Positions 45,361 through 52,201 of a stretch of DNA of 52,201 nt are shown here, piece by piece; position 1 is the stretch's first letter; each line of letters starts with the position of its first letter. The translations under genes and the position numbers were made by a program. The notes under the pieces were generated by a model. That model was given only the letters and a program-made list of their open reading frames with translations, was not told the DNA's origin and searched no databases. The stretch lies in contig JAFGFU010000016.1 in the NCBI GenBank assembly GCA_016930915.1, positions 1 through 52,201 of the forward strand, in the 5' to 3' direction. The stretch comes from Campylobacterales bacterium (GTDB lineage Bacteria; Campylobacterota; Campylobacteria; Campylobacterales; Sulfurospirillaceae).

Positions 45361-47172
45361 TTAGCGTTTGAACGAAATGGTAAAACAAGCGCCAAAATAG
45401 TCTTGATGATTGAGTGTAAAATGTTCATTTGTAATGCTAAGCTTTCCATGGAGATGCTCGCTAACAATTTGTTGTGCAATGTAAAGCCCAATGCCAGCTC
45501 CCTCTTTTTTGGTGCTAAAATGCGGGTTGAAAATACGATGGATGATTTTCTCAGGCACCCCTCCGCCGTTATCTTGAATGGTGATGCTAAACGCTTTATC
45601 GCTTTGATGGGTTTTTATAAGAATAATTTTTTCGCCATTTTTTTGATCGTTTAGAACATCTTTTGCGTTCATGAGGATATTGAGAATAACATGCTCAAAC
45701 TCTCCTTGGTAACTGTGCAATGTGCATGTGCTTTGCATCTGAGGGATGATTAAAATATCATCGAGTTTGAGGGTTTTTTCCATCAAGCGAATCATATGTT
45801 CAATGGATGTTACGATATCAAACGTATGTGTATTGTTTTTTATACTGAAAAAATTTTTAAAGATATCAATCGTATCTGCCATTTTTGCCATCAGGGTACG
45901 AGCAGCCTTCGTCTCTTTTTCAAGCAATTCGTGTGTCAGAAGATTTTTATGGTAAGCAAACTCAAATTTTTGCAAAACAAGCCCTAATTCATTCAAAGGC
46001 TGTTTCCATTGGTGCGCAATGGTGGCTATCATCTCACCCATAACGGCATATTTGGAGACATTGATAGCAGGGGTGAGAAGATTTTTAAAAACGAAAAAAC
46101 TATACAGACCAAAAAAGCCTAAAAGAGCCAATGCCAAAAGCGATGTCACATACTTAATCTCTTTAGAAGCGGTATCAAACTCCTCAAGATACGCAGACGA
46201 GACAACGTACCAGTTCAGTTCGGGGATTTGCTCTATCCATGCGATTTTATCGTAGTGATAATGCTCTGGATTTTCAGGTTTACTCCATTGATAAATCAAC
46301 TCTTTGGTCGTGGTGGCTTTTTCTATTAATTCATCAAAGATAAATTTGCCTGTGGTAGGATTTTTAATGGTTTTAAAATTTTCTCCCTCAAGCGTAGAAT
46401 TGGGGTTAATGAGCATCGTACCGTTTGCGTCAAAAAGGAAAAGATAGCCCGTTTTGCCGATGCGTGTTTTTTGGACAATTTCACTAAGCTGAAGCATCAG
46501 CGTTGCTTTTCGTTTATCAATCTCTGCTTGAATATCATCGATATACGCACCTGACATGACGACCATTTCCCACGGAGAAAAATCTTTAATAAACACCAAC
46601 TTTTCATGCCCAATGCTATCTTCGGGATTTTTTTTCCAAAAATACCTGTAAAAGCCCTCTCCGTACTCATTGATAATCGCATGAATGTCTGGGATGATTG
46701 CCTTACCTCTCATGTCGCCCATGTTACTCATATCCATGCTATTCATGTAAGGATGAGAAACCAAGACATTGTCATACGTACTAATGTAAAAATAGCCATC
46801 CCCACTATGGCGTAGTTTTGAAATGAGTTGCAAGACTTCTTTTTGATTGTTTTGGATGGCTTGTTGTGAAAGATTTTGCGTGGAAGATGCTTCATGTTTT
46901 GCTTGCAAAAGAGAGATGACCATATTGACCGCATTGGTTAGTTTGTCTTTATGCTGTTGGAGCGCTAACGCCTCATACATCGTCACATCTCTATGGGTAT
47001 TTTGCGCAAGGAGCACGACTTTTGAGAGCACTTCGTGCGCATTTTTTTCTTCTAGTTTTCGTGTGACATGGTGCATTTTTGGAAGAATAAACACATAAAT
47101 CGCTAAGGTGTAGAGAATAATCATACCCAAAACAGCAAGCATGGCTTTTAAAAAGAGTCTGGATTTAAACAT
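45361..47172 (-). CDS. Sensor histidine kinase with double Cache sensor
   Basis: Membrane sensor kinase. I start at ATG 47172 (MFKSRLFLKAMLAV), 603 residues; the frame extends further but overlaps the regulator gene and has no family support. A membrane helix (about 7-29) and a large periplasmic region with two Cache-type modules (GDGYFYISTYDNVLVSHP and KTGYLFLFDANGTMLINP) precede a second helix near 345-365. The kinase core has phospho-acceptor His in IAHQWKQPLNEL, an N-box near VILNILMNAKDVL, DNGGGVPE and GAGIGLYIA. It overlaps the regulator gene by 8 bases. Confidence 0.9.
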   Translation of the reverse strand: MFKSRLFLKAMLAVLGMIILYTLAIYVFILPKMHHVTRKLEEKNAHEVLSKVVLLAQNTHRDVTMYEALALQQHKDKLTNAVNMVISLLQAKHEASSTQNLSQQAIQNNQKEVLQLISKLRHSGDGYFYISTYDNVLVSHPYMNSMDMSNMGDMRGKAIIPDIHAIINEYGEGFYRYFWKKNPEDSIGHEKLVFIKDFSPWEMVVMSGAYIDDIQAEIDKRKATLMLQLSEIVQKTRIGKTGYLFLFDANGTMLINPNSTLEGENFKTIKNPTTGKFIFDELIEKATTTKELIYQWSKPENPEHYHYDKIAWIEQIPELNWYVVSSAYLEEFDTASKEIKYVTSLLALALLGFFGLYSFFVFKNLLTPAINVSKYAVMGEMIATIAHQWKQPLNELGLVLQKFEFAYHKNLLTHELLEKETKAARTLMAKMADTIDIFKNFFSIKNNTHTFDIVTSIEHMIRLMEKTLKLDDILIIPQMQSTCTLHSYQGEFEHVILNILMNAKDVLNDQKNGEKIILIKTHQSDKAFSITIQDNGGGVPEKIIHRIFNPHFSTKKEGAGIGLYIAQQIVSEHLHGKLSITNEHFTLNHQDYFGACFTISFKR

Positions 47173-47947
47173 GCATACCAATCTTATAACCAACACCTGA
47201 GAGGTTAATGATAATCTCTTTGGTGGTTTTTTTTCGGATGGACTTGACGATCGTGCGGACAAGCTCCAAGGAGGGGTTTTGGGTGGAGAGATGGTGCATG
47301 AGCGTTGCATAAGGGACAATCTCATTTTTATGGGTGATGAGATATTCAAGCAGTTCAATTTCTTGATTGCTTAACGTAATGGAGTGTTCTTCTGCTAAAA
47401 TCTTTTTGGTGTTAAAATCATAATGAAATAGATTGCAAAGGATGACTTTTTTATCTTTGGATGCTAACTCATCTAAAGCCACATCCAATGCTTTGGAAAA
47501 ATTGACCATGTCAAGCGATGTGATGGCACTCATTTTTGCAGATAAAAAAGAGAGCTGTTTTTGTTCATAAAGTCTCTCGCATGCAAGGCGTAGTTTTTCA
47601 AACAGAAGTGTGATATCCACAGGTTTAAGCACATAACTAAACACGCCTAGTTCTATAGCTTCAAGTAAATATTCTTGATCATTATGGGCGGTGGTGAGCA
47701 AGTAGGCAACGTTTGGGTTGATCTGTTTGATCTTTCGAATCATCTCAAGCCCATCCATCTTTGGCATATGAATATCACTCATAACCACATCAATCGTAGG
47801 TTCATTTTGGAAGAGCATGAGTCCTTCTTCACCCGTGGTCGCAACGAAAACTTTTTTGAAACTATTTTCCAAATAGTAACGAAGGTTGTTTCTCGTTCCT
47901 TCTTCATCTTCTACGTATAGAATGGAGAGATTTTCAAGATTTTTCAT
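47165..47947 (-). CDS. OmpR-type response regulator
   Basis: Receiver domain (residues about 4-118) with ILYVEDEE acidic pocket, VVMSDIHMPKMDG phospho-Asp and the Lys of VLKPVD. A middle helical stretch follows, then a C-terminal winged helix (about 185-258: TLSNQEIELLEYLI ... VRTIVKSIRKK ... INLSGVGYKI). I start at ATG 47947 (MKNLENLS); ATG 47977 is in frame but lacks a better ribosome site. It forms a two-component pair with the kinase downstream. It is divergent from the exoprotein gene at 48074, with a 126-base shared upstream region. Confidence 0.88.
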   Translation of the reverse strand: MKNLENLSILYVEDEEGTRNNLRYYLENSFKKVFVATTGEEGLMLFQNEPTIDVVMSDIHMPKMDGLEMIRKIKQINPNVAYLLTTAHNDQEYLLEAIELGVFSYVLKPVDITLLFEKLRLACERLYEQKQLSFLSAKMSAITSLDMVNFSKALDVALDELASKDKKVILCNLFHYDFNTKKILAEEHSITLSNQEIELLEYLITHKNEIVPYATLMHHLSTQNPSLELVRTIVKSIRKKTTKEIIINLSGVGYKIGMHV

Positions 47948-48035
47948 AGGAGAATGGTAACATAAAACTCTTTTCATTTGATGTCATTAATTATTTATTT
48001 TAAGCACTCTTCATTTTTTCTTCATTTTTTTTCAT

Positions 48036-48051
48036 TATGATTTTTTATAAA
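48036..48051 (+). promoter_or_regulatory. Candidate promoter of the exoprotein gene
   Basis: TATGAT (48036-48041) and TATAAA (48046-48051) lie 22-38 bases before ATG 48074, after T-rich tracts including TTCATTTTTT repeats. AAGAAAGAG is the ribosome site. This region is shared with the divergent response regulator gene. Confidence 0.4.
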
Positions 48052-48073
48052 AAAAGATAAGAAAGAGTACCCC

Positions 48074-51000
48074 ATGCGCAACACGTATCTACAAATGTGT
48101 GACTACACTTCACGTTTTAGAATCCTCAAAGGCGGAAAGATAAGCCTCGTGGTTTCAGCTTTCCTTGCAGGAGTAAGCTTGCTTCATGCCGCCCCTAGTG
48201 GGGGAGTAGTCACCAGTGGAACGGCAAATATCGCTCACAGTGGCAGTGTTACCACCATCAACCAATCTACCCAAAAAGCCTCGATTAACTGGCAGAATTT
48301 CTCGATTGGAGCTCACGAGAGTGTAAACTTTAAGCAACCAAACGCCTCTTCCATTACCCTTAACCGTGTCATAGGCAATGAAAAATCTATCATTAACGGA
48401 GCCCTTAATGCTAATGGTCAAGTGTGGATACTCAACTCCAATGGCGTACTCTTTAATGCCAGTGCCAAAGTTAATACCGCAGGACTCTTAGCCACCACAA
48501 TGCAGTTAAGCGATGAGGATTTTCAAAAAGGCGTTTATAGCTTTAAGGGTGACTCAACTGCTTCAGTGATAAACCTAGGAGAAATTACTATCCGTGATGG
48601 CGGATACGCTTCGCTTCTAGCAAATAGCGTTCAAAACGAAGGAAGTATTAAAGCCATTAAAGGAACCGTAACCTTAACAGGCGCAAGTGAAGCGACCATA
48701 AATCTCAATGGCAACTCTTTAGTCTCTCTCAAAGTCGATAAAGGTGTGCTTGATGCTTTGGTCGAAAACAAAGGTGCCATACTTGCCGATGGAGGAAATG
48801 TTTACTTAACCACCAATGCGGTGAATGAATTGCTTAAAGGTGTGGTCAATAACACAGGCATTATCGAAGCCAACTCCCTTGATGATGTTACAGGTGAGAT
48901 TATCCTTTATGCCCATGGGGGAGCTTTACATGTAAACGGCACACTTGAAGCCAAAGATGGGTTTATCGAGACTTCAGGGAAATCTTTACATGTAGAAGAT
49001 AGCACCATCATTAAAACCAAAAAATGGTTGCTTGACCCAGATAACATGACCATTGAAAACACGGGTGGTGCAAGTTTAACAGGAGAAAGTGTCAGTGCAA
49101 CAGCGGTTCAAAATGCACTTGGCAGTGCTGATATTGAACTTCAAGCAACCTATGACATCACCGTCAATGAAAACATTACATGGGCAACGGCTAAAAAACT
49201 GACCCTCACCGCAGGGTATGAGATTTATGTCAATGCCACGATAGAAAACACCAATACCACCGATGGGGGTGTGTACTATCGTGCAGCCAATACCTATAGA
49301 GTTATCTTTGGTACGAATGGTAAAGTCATTATCCATAACCCTTACCAACTCCAATGGGTCAATCAAGCCTTGCAAGGAACGTATGAACTAGGAAGCAATA
49401 TTGACGCTTCAGGAACGTCCTCATGGAACACTGGTGAAGGCTTTGTGCCGATAGGAACATTTGCAAACCCATTTAGTGGAAACTTTGATGGCAAGGGGTA
49501 TACGATTGATGGCTTGAAGATTAACCGCCCATCAACAGATAATTTAGGGCTTTTTGGAGTGGTCGACACAGGTGGAACAGTGAGTAACCTTGGGCTGACC
49601 AATGTTTCTATCACGGGTCAAGCGCATATTGGCGGATTGGTAGGAGCCAATAATGGAACCCTAAGCAACGTTTATGCTACGGGAAGTGTGAGTGGAAGTA
49701 GCCATGTTGGTGGATTGGTGGGACATAATGGTGGAATCCTAAGCAACGCTTATGCCACAGGGAGTGTGAGTGGACTTAGCCATGTCGGTGGATTGGTGGG
49801 AGGTAATTATGGAACCCTAACCAACGCTTATGCCACAGGGAGCGTGTTTGGAGGTTACAATGTCGGTGGATTAGTGGGAGGAAATTATGGCACTATTACC
49901 AGTAGTTACTGGGATACGCAGACCACAGGACAAACAACCAGTGCTGGTGGTACAGGGCTTACCACCGCACAGTTTGCCAACGCTTCAAACTTCAGCGGAT
50001 GGAACACCGCTGTATGGTCGTTTGGAGATGGCGATGCGGGAGAGGGATACGCAGTAGCCTTAAGACCCTATCTTAAAACAGTGACAGCAGAAGCCGATAA
50101 ATCAGTCTATACTCTTTTTAACAGCGGTTGGGGAACCGCTGGTTCTCCTTATACCATCACGAACTGGACACATTTACAAAATATCAACTACAACACCACG
50201 ACCCTTAGCAAATACTACGCCCTTTCCAACAACCTAAACACCACAACAGCAGGTTATACCAACATCAATAGTGGTGCAGGCTTTGTGCCGATAGGAACGA
50301 GCACAAAACCCTTTAGTGGAAACTTTGATGGGAACCATCATACTATTGATAGTTTAATGATTGACCGCTCATCAACAGATAATGTAGGGCTTTTTGGAAT
50401 GGTTGGCTCAGGTGGAACACTCAGTAATCTTGGGCTGACCAATGTTTTTATCACAGGTCATACTAATGTGGGTGGATTGATGGGATACAGTGTTGGAACA
50501 TTAACCAATGTTTATACTACAGGTAATGTGAGTGGAGAGAGCCGTGTTGGTGGATTGGTGGGATACAATTCTGGTGGAGTCCTAACCAATGCGTATGCTA
50601 CAGGGAGTGTAAGTGGTGAAGCTGGAAATTGGTATGTTGGTGGATTAGTGGGTGCCAATGATAATGGTGGAAGCCTAAGTAATGTTTATGCCACAGGGAG
50701 CGTGAGTGGAAGTAATGGTATTGGTGGATTGGTGGGAGGGAATATTGGTCACCTAAGCAACGCTTATGCCACAGGGAGTGTGAATGGAACTACTAATGTC
50801 GGTGGATTGGTCGGATACAATTGGAGCAGTGGCACTATCAGCAATAGTTACTGGGATACGCAGACCACAGGACAAACAAATGGAATGGGTTTAAACGATG
50901 GAGGTAGCATTACAAATGTAACAGGGCTTACCACCGCGGATTTTGCCAACGCTTCAAACTTCAGCGGATGGAACACCGCTGTATGGTCGTTTGGAGATGG

Positions 51001-52033
51001 CGATGCGGTAGCAGGATACGCAGTAGCCTTAAGACCCTATCTTAAAACCGTGACAACAGAAGCAGATGAACCAACACAGATACTTCTTTTTAACAGCGGT
51101 TGGGGAACCGTTGGTTCTCCTTATACCATCACGAACTGGACGCATTTACAAAACATCAACTACAACACGACGACCTTTGGCAAATACTACGCCCTTTCCA
51201 AAAACTTAAACACCACAACAACAGGTTATACCAATAGTGGCGAAGGTTTTATGCCGATAGGAACAGATGCAAATCGCTTTAGTGGAAACTTTGATGGTAA
51301 CCATCATACTATTGATGGCTTGAAGATTAACCGCTCATCGACAGATAATGTAGGGCTTTTTGGAGCGGTTGGCTCAGGTGGAACAGTGAGTAACCTTGGG
51401 CTGACCAATGTTTCTATCACAGGTCAGAATTTTGTTGGTGGATTGGTGGGAGAAAATGTTGGAACATTAACTAATGTCTATACCACAGGAAAGGTGCAAG
51501 GAACTGGTTTGGTCGGTGGATTGGTGGGAATAAACTATGGAAACTTAAGCAATGTATATGCTGCAGGGAGTGTGAGTGGAACTAATTTTGTTGGTGGATT
51601 GGTCGGATACAATGGGTTTGGCACTATTAGCAATAGTTACTGGGATACGCAGACCACGGGACAAACAAATGGCGTTGGTTTAGATAGTGGGGGTAGCATT
51701 ACAAATGTAACAGGGCTTACCACCGCACAAATGAAACAAAAAGTAAATTTCACAGGGTTTGATTTTGATACGATTTGGGTTATCTATGAGGGGCACACGT
51801 ATCCATTACTTCGTTCGTTACAAGCAGACCCAAATCCTCTGGTAATTTTTCCAAATGTCGCCCATATAGAAAACGGTACAGCAACGCATCCCCCGTTTTT
51901 TACTGTGCCTACGGATAGATTTAGTAGAGAAGCTGGGGGCATTTTTTTAGTGTTGGGGAAAATGAACTCTATGAGTGGGGGCATTCGCCTTCCTGAGGGT
52001 TTAGAAGAAGATTTACTTTTAGTACAACGATAA
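48074..52033 (+). CDS. FHA-type two-partner-secretion exoprotein (TpsA) with GLUG repeats
   Basis: Large exported protein, 1319 residues. The N-terminus is an extended signal peptide (MRNTYLQMCDYTSRFRILKG, then a hydrophobic core ending LLHAA near residue 40). A hemagglutination-activity/TPS domain (about 41-170) follows, with SINWQNFSIGAHESVNFKQP, VIGNEKSIINGALNANGQVW and LNSNGVLFNASAKVNTAGLL. About 12 GLUG-type units of roughly 24 residues (VGGLVG-x-N-x-G-x-LSN-x-YATGSVSG), in three blocks separated by two long near-identical spacers, make up the rest. It is probably an adhesin, substrate of the TpsB encoded next. Base composition looks higher in GC than its neighbours, suggesting transfer. 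Two palindrome copies occur only in its first third. Confidence 0.9.
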   Translation: MRNTYLQMCDYTSRFRILKGGKISLVVSAFLAGVSLLHAAPSGGVVTSGTANIAHSGSVTTINQSTQKASINWQNFSIGAHESVNFKQPNASSITLNRVIGNEKSIINGALNANGQVWILNSNGVLFNASAKVNTAGLLATTMQLSDEDFQKGVYSFKGDSTASVINLGEITIRDGGYASLLANSVQNEGSIKAIKGTVTLTGASEATINLNGNSLVSLKVDKGVLDALVENKGAILADGGNVYLTTNAVNELLKGVVNNTGIIEANSLDDVTGEIILYAHGGALHVNGTLEAKDGFIETSGKSLHVEDSTIIKTKKWLLDPDNMTIENTGGASLTGESVSATAVQNALGSADIELQATYDITVNENITWATAKKLTLTAGYEIYVNATIENTNTTDGGVYYRAANTYRVIFGTNGKVIIHNPYQLQWVNQALQGTYELGSNIDASGTSSWNTGEGFVPIGTFANPFSGNFDGKGYTIDGLKINRPSTDNLGLFGVVDTGGTVSNLGLTNVSITGQAHIGGLVGANNGTLSNVYATGSVSGSSHVGGLVGHNGGILSNAYATGSVSGLSHVGGLVGGNYGTLTNAYATGSVFGGYNVGGLVGGNYGTITSSYWDTQTTGQTTSAGGTGLTTAQFANASNFSGWNTAVWSFGDGDAGEGYAVALRPYLKTVTAEADKSVYTLFNSGWGTAGSPYTITNWTHLQNINYNTTTLSKYYALSNNLNTTTAGYTNINSGAGFVPIGTSTKPFSGNFDGNHHTIDSLMIDRSSTDNVGLFGMVGSGGTLSNLGLTNVFITGHTNVGGLMGYSVGTLTNVYTTGNVSGESRVGGLVGYNSGGVLTNAYATGSVSGEAGNWYVGGLVGANDNGGSLSNVYATGSVSGSNGIGGLVGGNIGHLSNAYATGSVNGTTNVGGLVGYNWSSGTISNSYWDTQTTGQTNGMGLNDGGSITNVTGLTTADFANASNFSGWNTAVWSFGDGDAVAGYAVALRPYLKTVTTEADEPTQILLFNSGWGTVGSPYTITNWTHLQNINYNTTTFGKYYALSKNLNTTTTGYTNSGEGFMPIGTDANRFSGNFDGNHHTIDGLKINRSSTDNVGLFGAVGSGGTVSNLGLTNVSITGQNFVGGLVGENVGTLTNVYTTGKVQGTGLVGGLVGINYGNLSNVYAAGSVSGTNFVGGLVGYNGFGTISNSYWDTQTTGQTNGVGLDSGGSITNVTGLTTAQMKQKVNFTGFDFDTIWVIYEGHTYPLLRSLQADPNPLVIFPNVAHIENGTATHPPFFTVPTDRFSREAGGIFLVLGKMNSMSGGIRLPEGLEEDLLLVQR
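48925..48936. repeat. Palindrome TTTACATGTAAA in exoprotein gene
   Basis: Perfect copy read as LHVN; an 11/12 copy (LHVE) follows 60 bases later at 48985. Confidence 0.95.
49952..50398 (+). repeat. Long internal repeat of the exoprotein gene, copy 1
   Basis: About 447 bases from ACAGGGCTTACCACCGC to GTAGGGCTTTTTGGA, encoding the block with FANASNFSGWNTAVWSFGD and TITNWTHLQNINYNTTT. It recurs with few changes at 50921-51364, 969 bases downstream. Confidence 0.8.
50921..51364 (+). repeat. Long internal repeat of the exoprotein gene, copy 2
   Basis: Second copy, about 444 bases, of the segment at 49952-50398. The high DNA identity, including silent positions, implies recent duplication or gene conversion within the gene. 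Confidence 0.8.
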
Positions 52034-52045
52034 GGAAAATAATAG

Positions 52046-52201
52046 ATGAAGAGCAACATCGTACTCGTATCACTTATAAGTGCCTCCTTTCTCTATGGCG
52101 CACCTACGATTGGAGATATAGAAAGAAACGTACAACCTCCCAAAGAGGTCGAACGTGGGATGAATAATACCATCCCAACACTTCCCACGCAAGAGCTAAA
52201 A
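52046..52201 (+). CDS. Start of a probable TpsB-type outer-membrane transporter (partial)
   Basis: The first 52 codons are in the window. ATG 52046 is preceded by AAGGA and starts a signal peptide (MKSNIVLVSLISASFLYGAP). The mature start TIGDIERNVQPPKEVE resembles the N-terminal segment of FhaC/ShlB transporters before the POTRA domains. Position 12 bases after the exoprotein gene makes this the expected partner; the barrel itself lies outside the window. Confidence 0.65.
   Translation, partial: MKSNIVLVSLISASFLYGAPTIGDIERNVQPPKEVERGMNNTIPTLPTQELK

Follow-up and report, generated by a model that had tools for sequence, protein, structure and literature searches.

The window analyzed here, which is the entire contig C26 (52,201 bases) of a Campylobacterales genome of 2.23 Mb in 37 contigs, ends in a two-partner secretion (TPS) locus. 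We consider it probable that this locus is a type Vb secretion operon whose exoprotein gene tpsA (48074..52033, plus strand) is switched by a divergent kinase-regulator pair through an operator with an 11-bp period, and that the secretion cassette has been relinked repeatedly to such pairs. The adjoining two-component system and the operator were absent from a previous account of the locus, made from the letters of the DNA alone (hereafter the sequence-only reading).

The two-component system adjoins tpsA, in the layout of BvgAS-type regulation. The response regulator gene (47165..47977, minus strand) is divergent from tpsA, and its product matches a receiver domain (85.9 bits) and Trans_reg_C (40.8 bits), both above cut-off, which places it in the OmpR/PhoB type. 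The histidine kinase (dCache_2 and HATPase_c) is listed as an open reading frame at 45361..47358 on the minus strand; because this frame overlaps the regulator gene, the real start of the kinase probably lies further in. Target promoters of OmpR/PhoB regulators bear tandem half-sites about 11 bp apart, and such a geometry is found in the sequence upstream of tpsA, where the candidate operator consists of two copies of CTTCATTTTTT with an 11-bp period (48009..48030, plus strand; sequence CTTCATTTTTTCTTCATTTTTT). The second half-site starts 16 nt from a candidate -10 box, TATGAT (48036..48041, plus strand), and the tandem repeat occupies the expected -35 position of the tpsA promoter. This corresponds to the class-II layout of PhoB, in which the activator site replaces the -35 box.

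We infer signal, binding, activation, regulation and secretion to proceed as follows. The dCache kinase and its partner would switch tpsA transcription, the phosphorylated OmpR/PhoB-type regulator binding the two head-to-tail 11-bp half-sites, the second of which would substitute for the -35 box, with recruitment of polymerase to the -10 box. TpsA would then be exported via Sec, dock on the TpsB POTRA domains through its TPS domain and, once outside the cell, fold into a long beta-solenoid fibre, the role of which would most likely be adhesion, aggregation or biofilm formation. Within Campylobacterota, the tpsAB cassette would have been joined more than once to a kinase-regulator pair, the pair being a different one each time and bringing an operator of its own.

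The survey that carries this proposal covered 31 distinct Campylobacterota tpsA loci, each with at least two upstream genes. Gene calling relied on a simple script that takes the longest ORF; phmmer, with queries from the source genome, located the kinases and regulators, a procedure that distant ones may escape. Three loci on the same contigs as others were dropped (L045, L050 and L054, with L034, L032 and L038, respectively), a weak match (L042, genome G008) was left unused, and L051, L059 and L062 stand outside the 31, their upstream sequence being too short. At 20 of the 31, at least one of the two nearest upstream genes is a kinase or a regulator, and all of these linked loci have both a kinase and a regulator within 5 kb upstream. 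The same link was seen for 8 of 100 other genes of the same loci (Fisher p 6e-10) and, in other phyla, for 3 of 41 tpsA loci. The inputs of the kinases vary, Pfam recognizing SBP_bac_3 with PAS, 7TMR-DISM, dCache_2, NMT1 with SBP_bac_3, or none. A paralogous tpsA of the source genome, on contig C10, runs in the same direction as the regulator and kinase genes that precede it (SBP_bac_3, PAS, HisKA_2). The nearest named relatives of the window tpsA carry the labels of Sulfurospirillaceae and of other Campylobacterota.

We then consider the 160 bases upstream of each tpsA, which were searched for direct repeats, exact over 7 bases or more, with periods of 7 to 20. Repeats with a 10- to 12-bp period were found in 17 of the 20 linked loci (11 bp in 12, 12 bp in 3 and 10 bp in 2), the only remaining periods being 9 bp (2) and 18 bp (1); at L038 the kinase-regulator pair is present and no repeat was found. 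The control comprised 118 upstream regions, reduced to 110 by removal of 8 that share tpsA promoter sequence, and gave an 11-bp repeat in 8 and a 10- to 12-bp repeat in 19 (p 3e-7 and 7e-9, respectively, against the linked loci, uncorrected). With a stricter complexity filter, 11-bp repeats were retained in 10 of the 20 linked loci. A triple TTCAT at strict 11-bp spacing was also tried and discarded, with no match in the window, in 131 loci or in the source genome; by eye, the window shows one 11-bp step followed by a partial copy at 10 bp.

The half-sites follow the lineage of the regulator. TCAAAC(GC) is common to five SBP-type loci (L013, L033, L034, L057 and L066), AAAGTAACG with a 12-bp period to L047 and L048, and TCACACT with a 10-bp period to L049, L060 and L017, further half-sites being confined to single loci. 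In 17 of 23 loci a -10-like hexamer is found 14-18 nt from the second half-site, against a mean of 2.3 and a maximum of 9 for random anchors (5000 draws); in this test the repeats were hand-picked from the listing, L013 and L035 have only 6 exact matches, the repeat used at L056 was the second one, nearer the start than the longest, and four of the loci (L017, L053, L062 and L064) lie outside the 20 linked. The idea of an operator dedicated to the SBP-type regulator was rejected, TCAAAC-N5-TCAAAC being present not only at tpsA, in 3 of 3 genomes, but also at 8 other places there.

With up to 2 mismatches allowed, the window operator is itself the sole match in the source genome, and it has one exact occurrence in the genome G027, upstream of tpsA. 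At E<=1e-30 the window regulator was recovered in 3 of 44 family genomes (the source, G027 and G013), at most 58 candidates having been scored per genome. The kinase-regulator-operator stretch of G013 is 92.6% identical to positions 45377-48055 of the window, and the two cease to be similar 18 nt short of the tpsA start; in G013 the gene that follows encodes a DUF697 protein. The operator is thus kept before a DUF697 gene, and therefore travels with the regulator, the cargo gene being a different one.

A tree was built from 22 linked regulators (including L036 and L053, where the regulator is the third upstream gene) and 30 other regulators of the source genome. One clade of 11 regulators (support 99/98) is entirely tps-linked; a single clade of tpsA-specific regulators was nevertheless rejected, since 7 label changes are needed on the tree and at least 3 are forced by well-supported branches. 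Sensor types are scattered on the TpsA tree: they require 13 changes, where shuffling gives 15.4 on average, and since 15 of 200 shuffles gave as few as 13, sensor type tracks that tree weakly at best. The dCache-linked TpsA of the window nests among SBP-linked TpsAs. The five SBP-type loci have regulators of one clade and a common half-site, even though the TpsA tree places L057 and L066 well away from L013, L033 and L034. On balance we favor a broader view, in which the tpsAB of Campylobacterota is an output module, coupled on several occasions to two-component systems unrelated to one another. Each of these would bring an operator of its own, alike in geometry, with the result that nearly the same adhesin would answer different signals, and one genome may wire two copies with almost identical TpsBs to two sensors. 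The secretion locus itself is of a known kind. If our proposal holds, regulator-operator specificity could be read from sequence across many natural pairings, and the phylum would offer a test of the evolutionary rewiring of surface-adhesion genes; for many TpsA proteins as yet uncharacterised, regulators and target sites are also predicted.

Concerning the exoprotein, the sequence-only reading had described a TPS domain followed by about 12 GLUG units, and the profile searches support it, both families being matched above their curated cut-offs. The 1319-residue TpsA begins with a TPS domain, the mark of type Vb secretion (residues 39-279, 48188..48910, plus strand; PF05860, E 3e-32, 112.8 bits against a cut-off of 33.5), and also matches the FHA N-terminal domain of NCBIfam (TIGR01901). 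Glug (PF07581) matches 11 stretches (E 2e-29, 100.6 bits against 20.5), which makes TpsA a GLUG-repeat protein, and a count by the pattern [VI]GGL[VMI]G arrives at 12 units, which fall into three blocks with 4, 5 and 3 units (49628..51673, plus strand, limits approximate). The blocks are 51-59% identical to one another, and the array therefore probably grew through block duplication. The extended signal peptide stands as no more than a description: the stretch preceding the hydrophobic core looks long on inspection, and ESPR, which we take to be the family of such peptides, was absent from the Pfam matches of TpsA at E<=1. A structure model of residues 26-675 only has a mean pLDDT of 71 and is partly poor, with values mostly of 88-98 over the first GLUG block, which is modelled as a beta-solenoid; it resembles the TPS secretion domains of EtpA, HxuA and HMW1, and suggests a TpsA with a beta-solenoid body following the TPS domain. 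The view that TPS and GLUG form an unusual combination had to be abandoned. A tblastn search with the entire TpsA gave some match to 190 plasmid records. For 5 of these the match extends over 80% or more of the protein, and among the 20 rows listed, 18 span from before residue 45 to past residue 1100, pieces having been joined in such a way that adjoining genes may be counted in; the combination is common, and a paralogue exists in the same genome.

The gene that follows tpsA starts 12 bases past its stop codon and is still open at the contig end, which leaves its first 52 codons (52046..52201, plus strand). It had been taken for a likely tpsB, and homology agrees. The 52 residues match the N-termini of full-length proteins encoded directly downstream of tpsA in relatives, among them L033 (genome G013), L034, L035 and L032, and the L033 protein, the one examined with Pfam, bears POTRA_2 and ShlB; the source genome also has two tpsB 3' ends, each at the edge of a contig (C28 and C36). 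On these homologies the truncated gene is a tpsB. The C10 copy, whose TpsA is 80% identical to that of the window over the first 450 residues, likewise ends within tpsB. The last 87 bases of C26 and C10 are exactly identical, the C28 start and the reversed C36 end share 87 bases within the tpsB 3' end, and synteny joins C26 to C36 via G027 and C10 to C28 via G013. The simplest reading of these sequences would be two tpsB genes with a middle too similar to assemble, and the identical contig ends suggest near-identical tpsB cores, lost in the assembly gap, beside diverged tpsA genes. A third and distinct TPS system of the genome (C24; L044 2890-9735) is devoid of GLUG and has tpsB before tpsA, an order opposite to that of the window.

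Several observations weigh against our proposal. The window repeat is T-rich, and the stricter filter drops both it and the G027 copy. Control promoters are themselves richer in 11- and 12-bp repeats than in other periods, and therefore the repeat is not special to tpsA. No kinase or regulator was found among the first two upstream genes at 11 of the 31 loci (L017, L036, L037, L039, L040, L043, L053, L058, L063, L064 and L067), and among these an 11-bp repeat occurs in 2 and a 10- to 12-bp repeat in only 3. Besides the third-gene regulators mentioned above, a kinase lies about 3 kb upstream at L063 and a kinase-regulator pair downstream at L067, and at others Mur ligase or LysE genes, for example, lie upstream of tpsA. 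Two of the 18 linked regulators examined gave no Trans_reg_C match at E<=1e-3 and 3 further ones fall under the curated cut-off. G013 has the same regulator and operator and no tpsA at that place, and therefore the pair is not solely an adhesin regulator. The loci share kinship, for which the p-values are uncorrected; the tpsB of the assembly is incomplete, its middle being absent; and the adhesion role that we infer for TpsA is drawn from analogy only.

On this basis, one would wonder whether the adjacency could be neutral, variable loci collecting abundant two-component genes as well as tpsAB, and tpsA being controlled otherwise or constitutive. Such a view would accommodate the 51 receiver-domain matches across the 2.23-Mb genome, the 11 loci just listed and the several lineages of the linked regulators. 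However, we hold it to be unlikely, as the link is made by 20 of 31 tpsA loci against 8 of 100 other genes of the same loci, the operator-like repeats stand at a near-fixed spacing from the -10 box, and their half-sites track regulator lineage. It is also rather unlikely, in our opinion, that the operator mainly autoregulates the kinase-regulator pair, with tpsA as a passenger in the divergent cases, even if both genes there have the intergenic region in common and the G013 operator persists without tpsA. Indeed, the co-directional loci L013, L033, L034, L057 and L066 carry the repeat between the kinase gene and tpsA, and its second half-site starts there 16 nt before a -10-like box pointing into tpsA. 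As for the product, TpsA could be a secreted effector or protease and not an adhesin, since it matches Peptidase_M26_N (E 8e-15) and the GLUG part of the model resembles structures of the IgA1-protease type (3n6z, a putative IgA1 protease, 274 columns, rmsd 3.1; a weak match to the IgA1 protease 7jgj, E 0.05). We regard this as very improbable: the best M26_N stretch (residues 428-537) covers profile positions 149-250 only, and no catalytic or toxin domain was detected by Pfam and NCBIfam at E<=1.

Several known systems can be compared with tpsAB and its adjacent kinase-regulator pair. The layout is like that of bvgAS-fhaB, with a two-component pair divergent from tpsA, and BvgS has SBP-type inputs. 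According to the excerpts available of the papers cited here, bvgAS of Bordetella is divergent from and adjoins the TpsA gene fhaB (PMC2225982), which BvgAS controls (PMC5422565). BvgA sites are inverted heptamers (PMC2225982), whereas the Campylobacterota loci display OmpR/PhoB-type regulators with direct repeats, as well as several unrelated kinases. The best reading is that their tpsAB came repeatedly under local and interchangeable two-component control, in a layout like that of bvgAS-fhaB, independently built. A 2017 review presents BvgAS as the best-studied tps regulatory pathway and names few others (PMC5422565); PhoBR-pdtAB, RssAB-shlBA and EsrAB-ethBA are tps operons under two-component control, for which these excerpts describe neither regulator adjacency nor exchange (PMC5422565). 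In the same phylum as the window, hecAB of Arcobacter butzleri is an FHA-type TpsA/TpsB pair listed among putative virulence determinants, the excerpts of that paper describing no GLUG repeats, operator or adjacent kinase (PMC2147049). A narrow open-access search found no report for Campylobacterota of tpsA linked to varied two-component systems with matching operators; such searches also gave only HtrA protease work for two-partner secretion in this phylum, no paper joining GLUG to filamentous hemagglutinin or two-partner secretion, and only archaea for the GLUG motif.

With the class of EtpA, heme/hemopexin-binding protein (HxuA), HMW1 and FHA, the window TpsA has in common the TPS domain and a tpsB adjoining tpsA, the secretion domains of the first three being matched by both sequence and model, but its body is made of GLUG blocks. 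The GLUG-containing IgA1 proteases (M26) share with it the M26_N and Glug profiles, and TpsA has a TPS export domain in place of their protease domain.

The C-terminus of TpsA bears a GGIRLP motif (51977..51994, plus strand) that starts 18 residues before the end. Among complete TpsA proteins, an NGG[VI]xLP-like motif, a pattern composed after inspecting the tails, is found near the C-terminus in 20 of 26 from Campylobacterota and 10 of 28 from elsewhere, with 0 and 5, respectively, within the protein bodies; it could perhaps serve surface retention.

An Aliarcobacter cryaerophilus plasmid carries a homologous tpsA/tpsB pair in which tpsB is interrupted by an IS21 element. At L017 (7995-16120), an Aliarcobacter plasmid locus with tpsB split by IS21, the TCACACT repeat of the chromosomal relatives is kept at tpsA, with no kinase pair within 5 kb of it. 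The regulator match of G027 (C406, 8878-9678) has one TAA inside the aligned stretch. Finally, the kinase of L055 (1133-2732) lies in two overlapping frames, with SBP_bac_3 and HATPase_c, perhaps through a frameshift.

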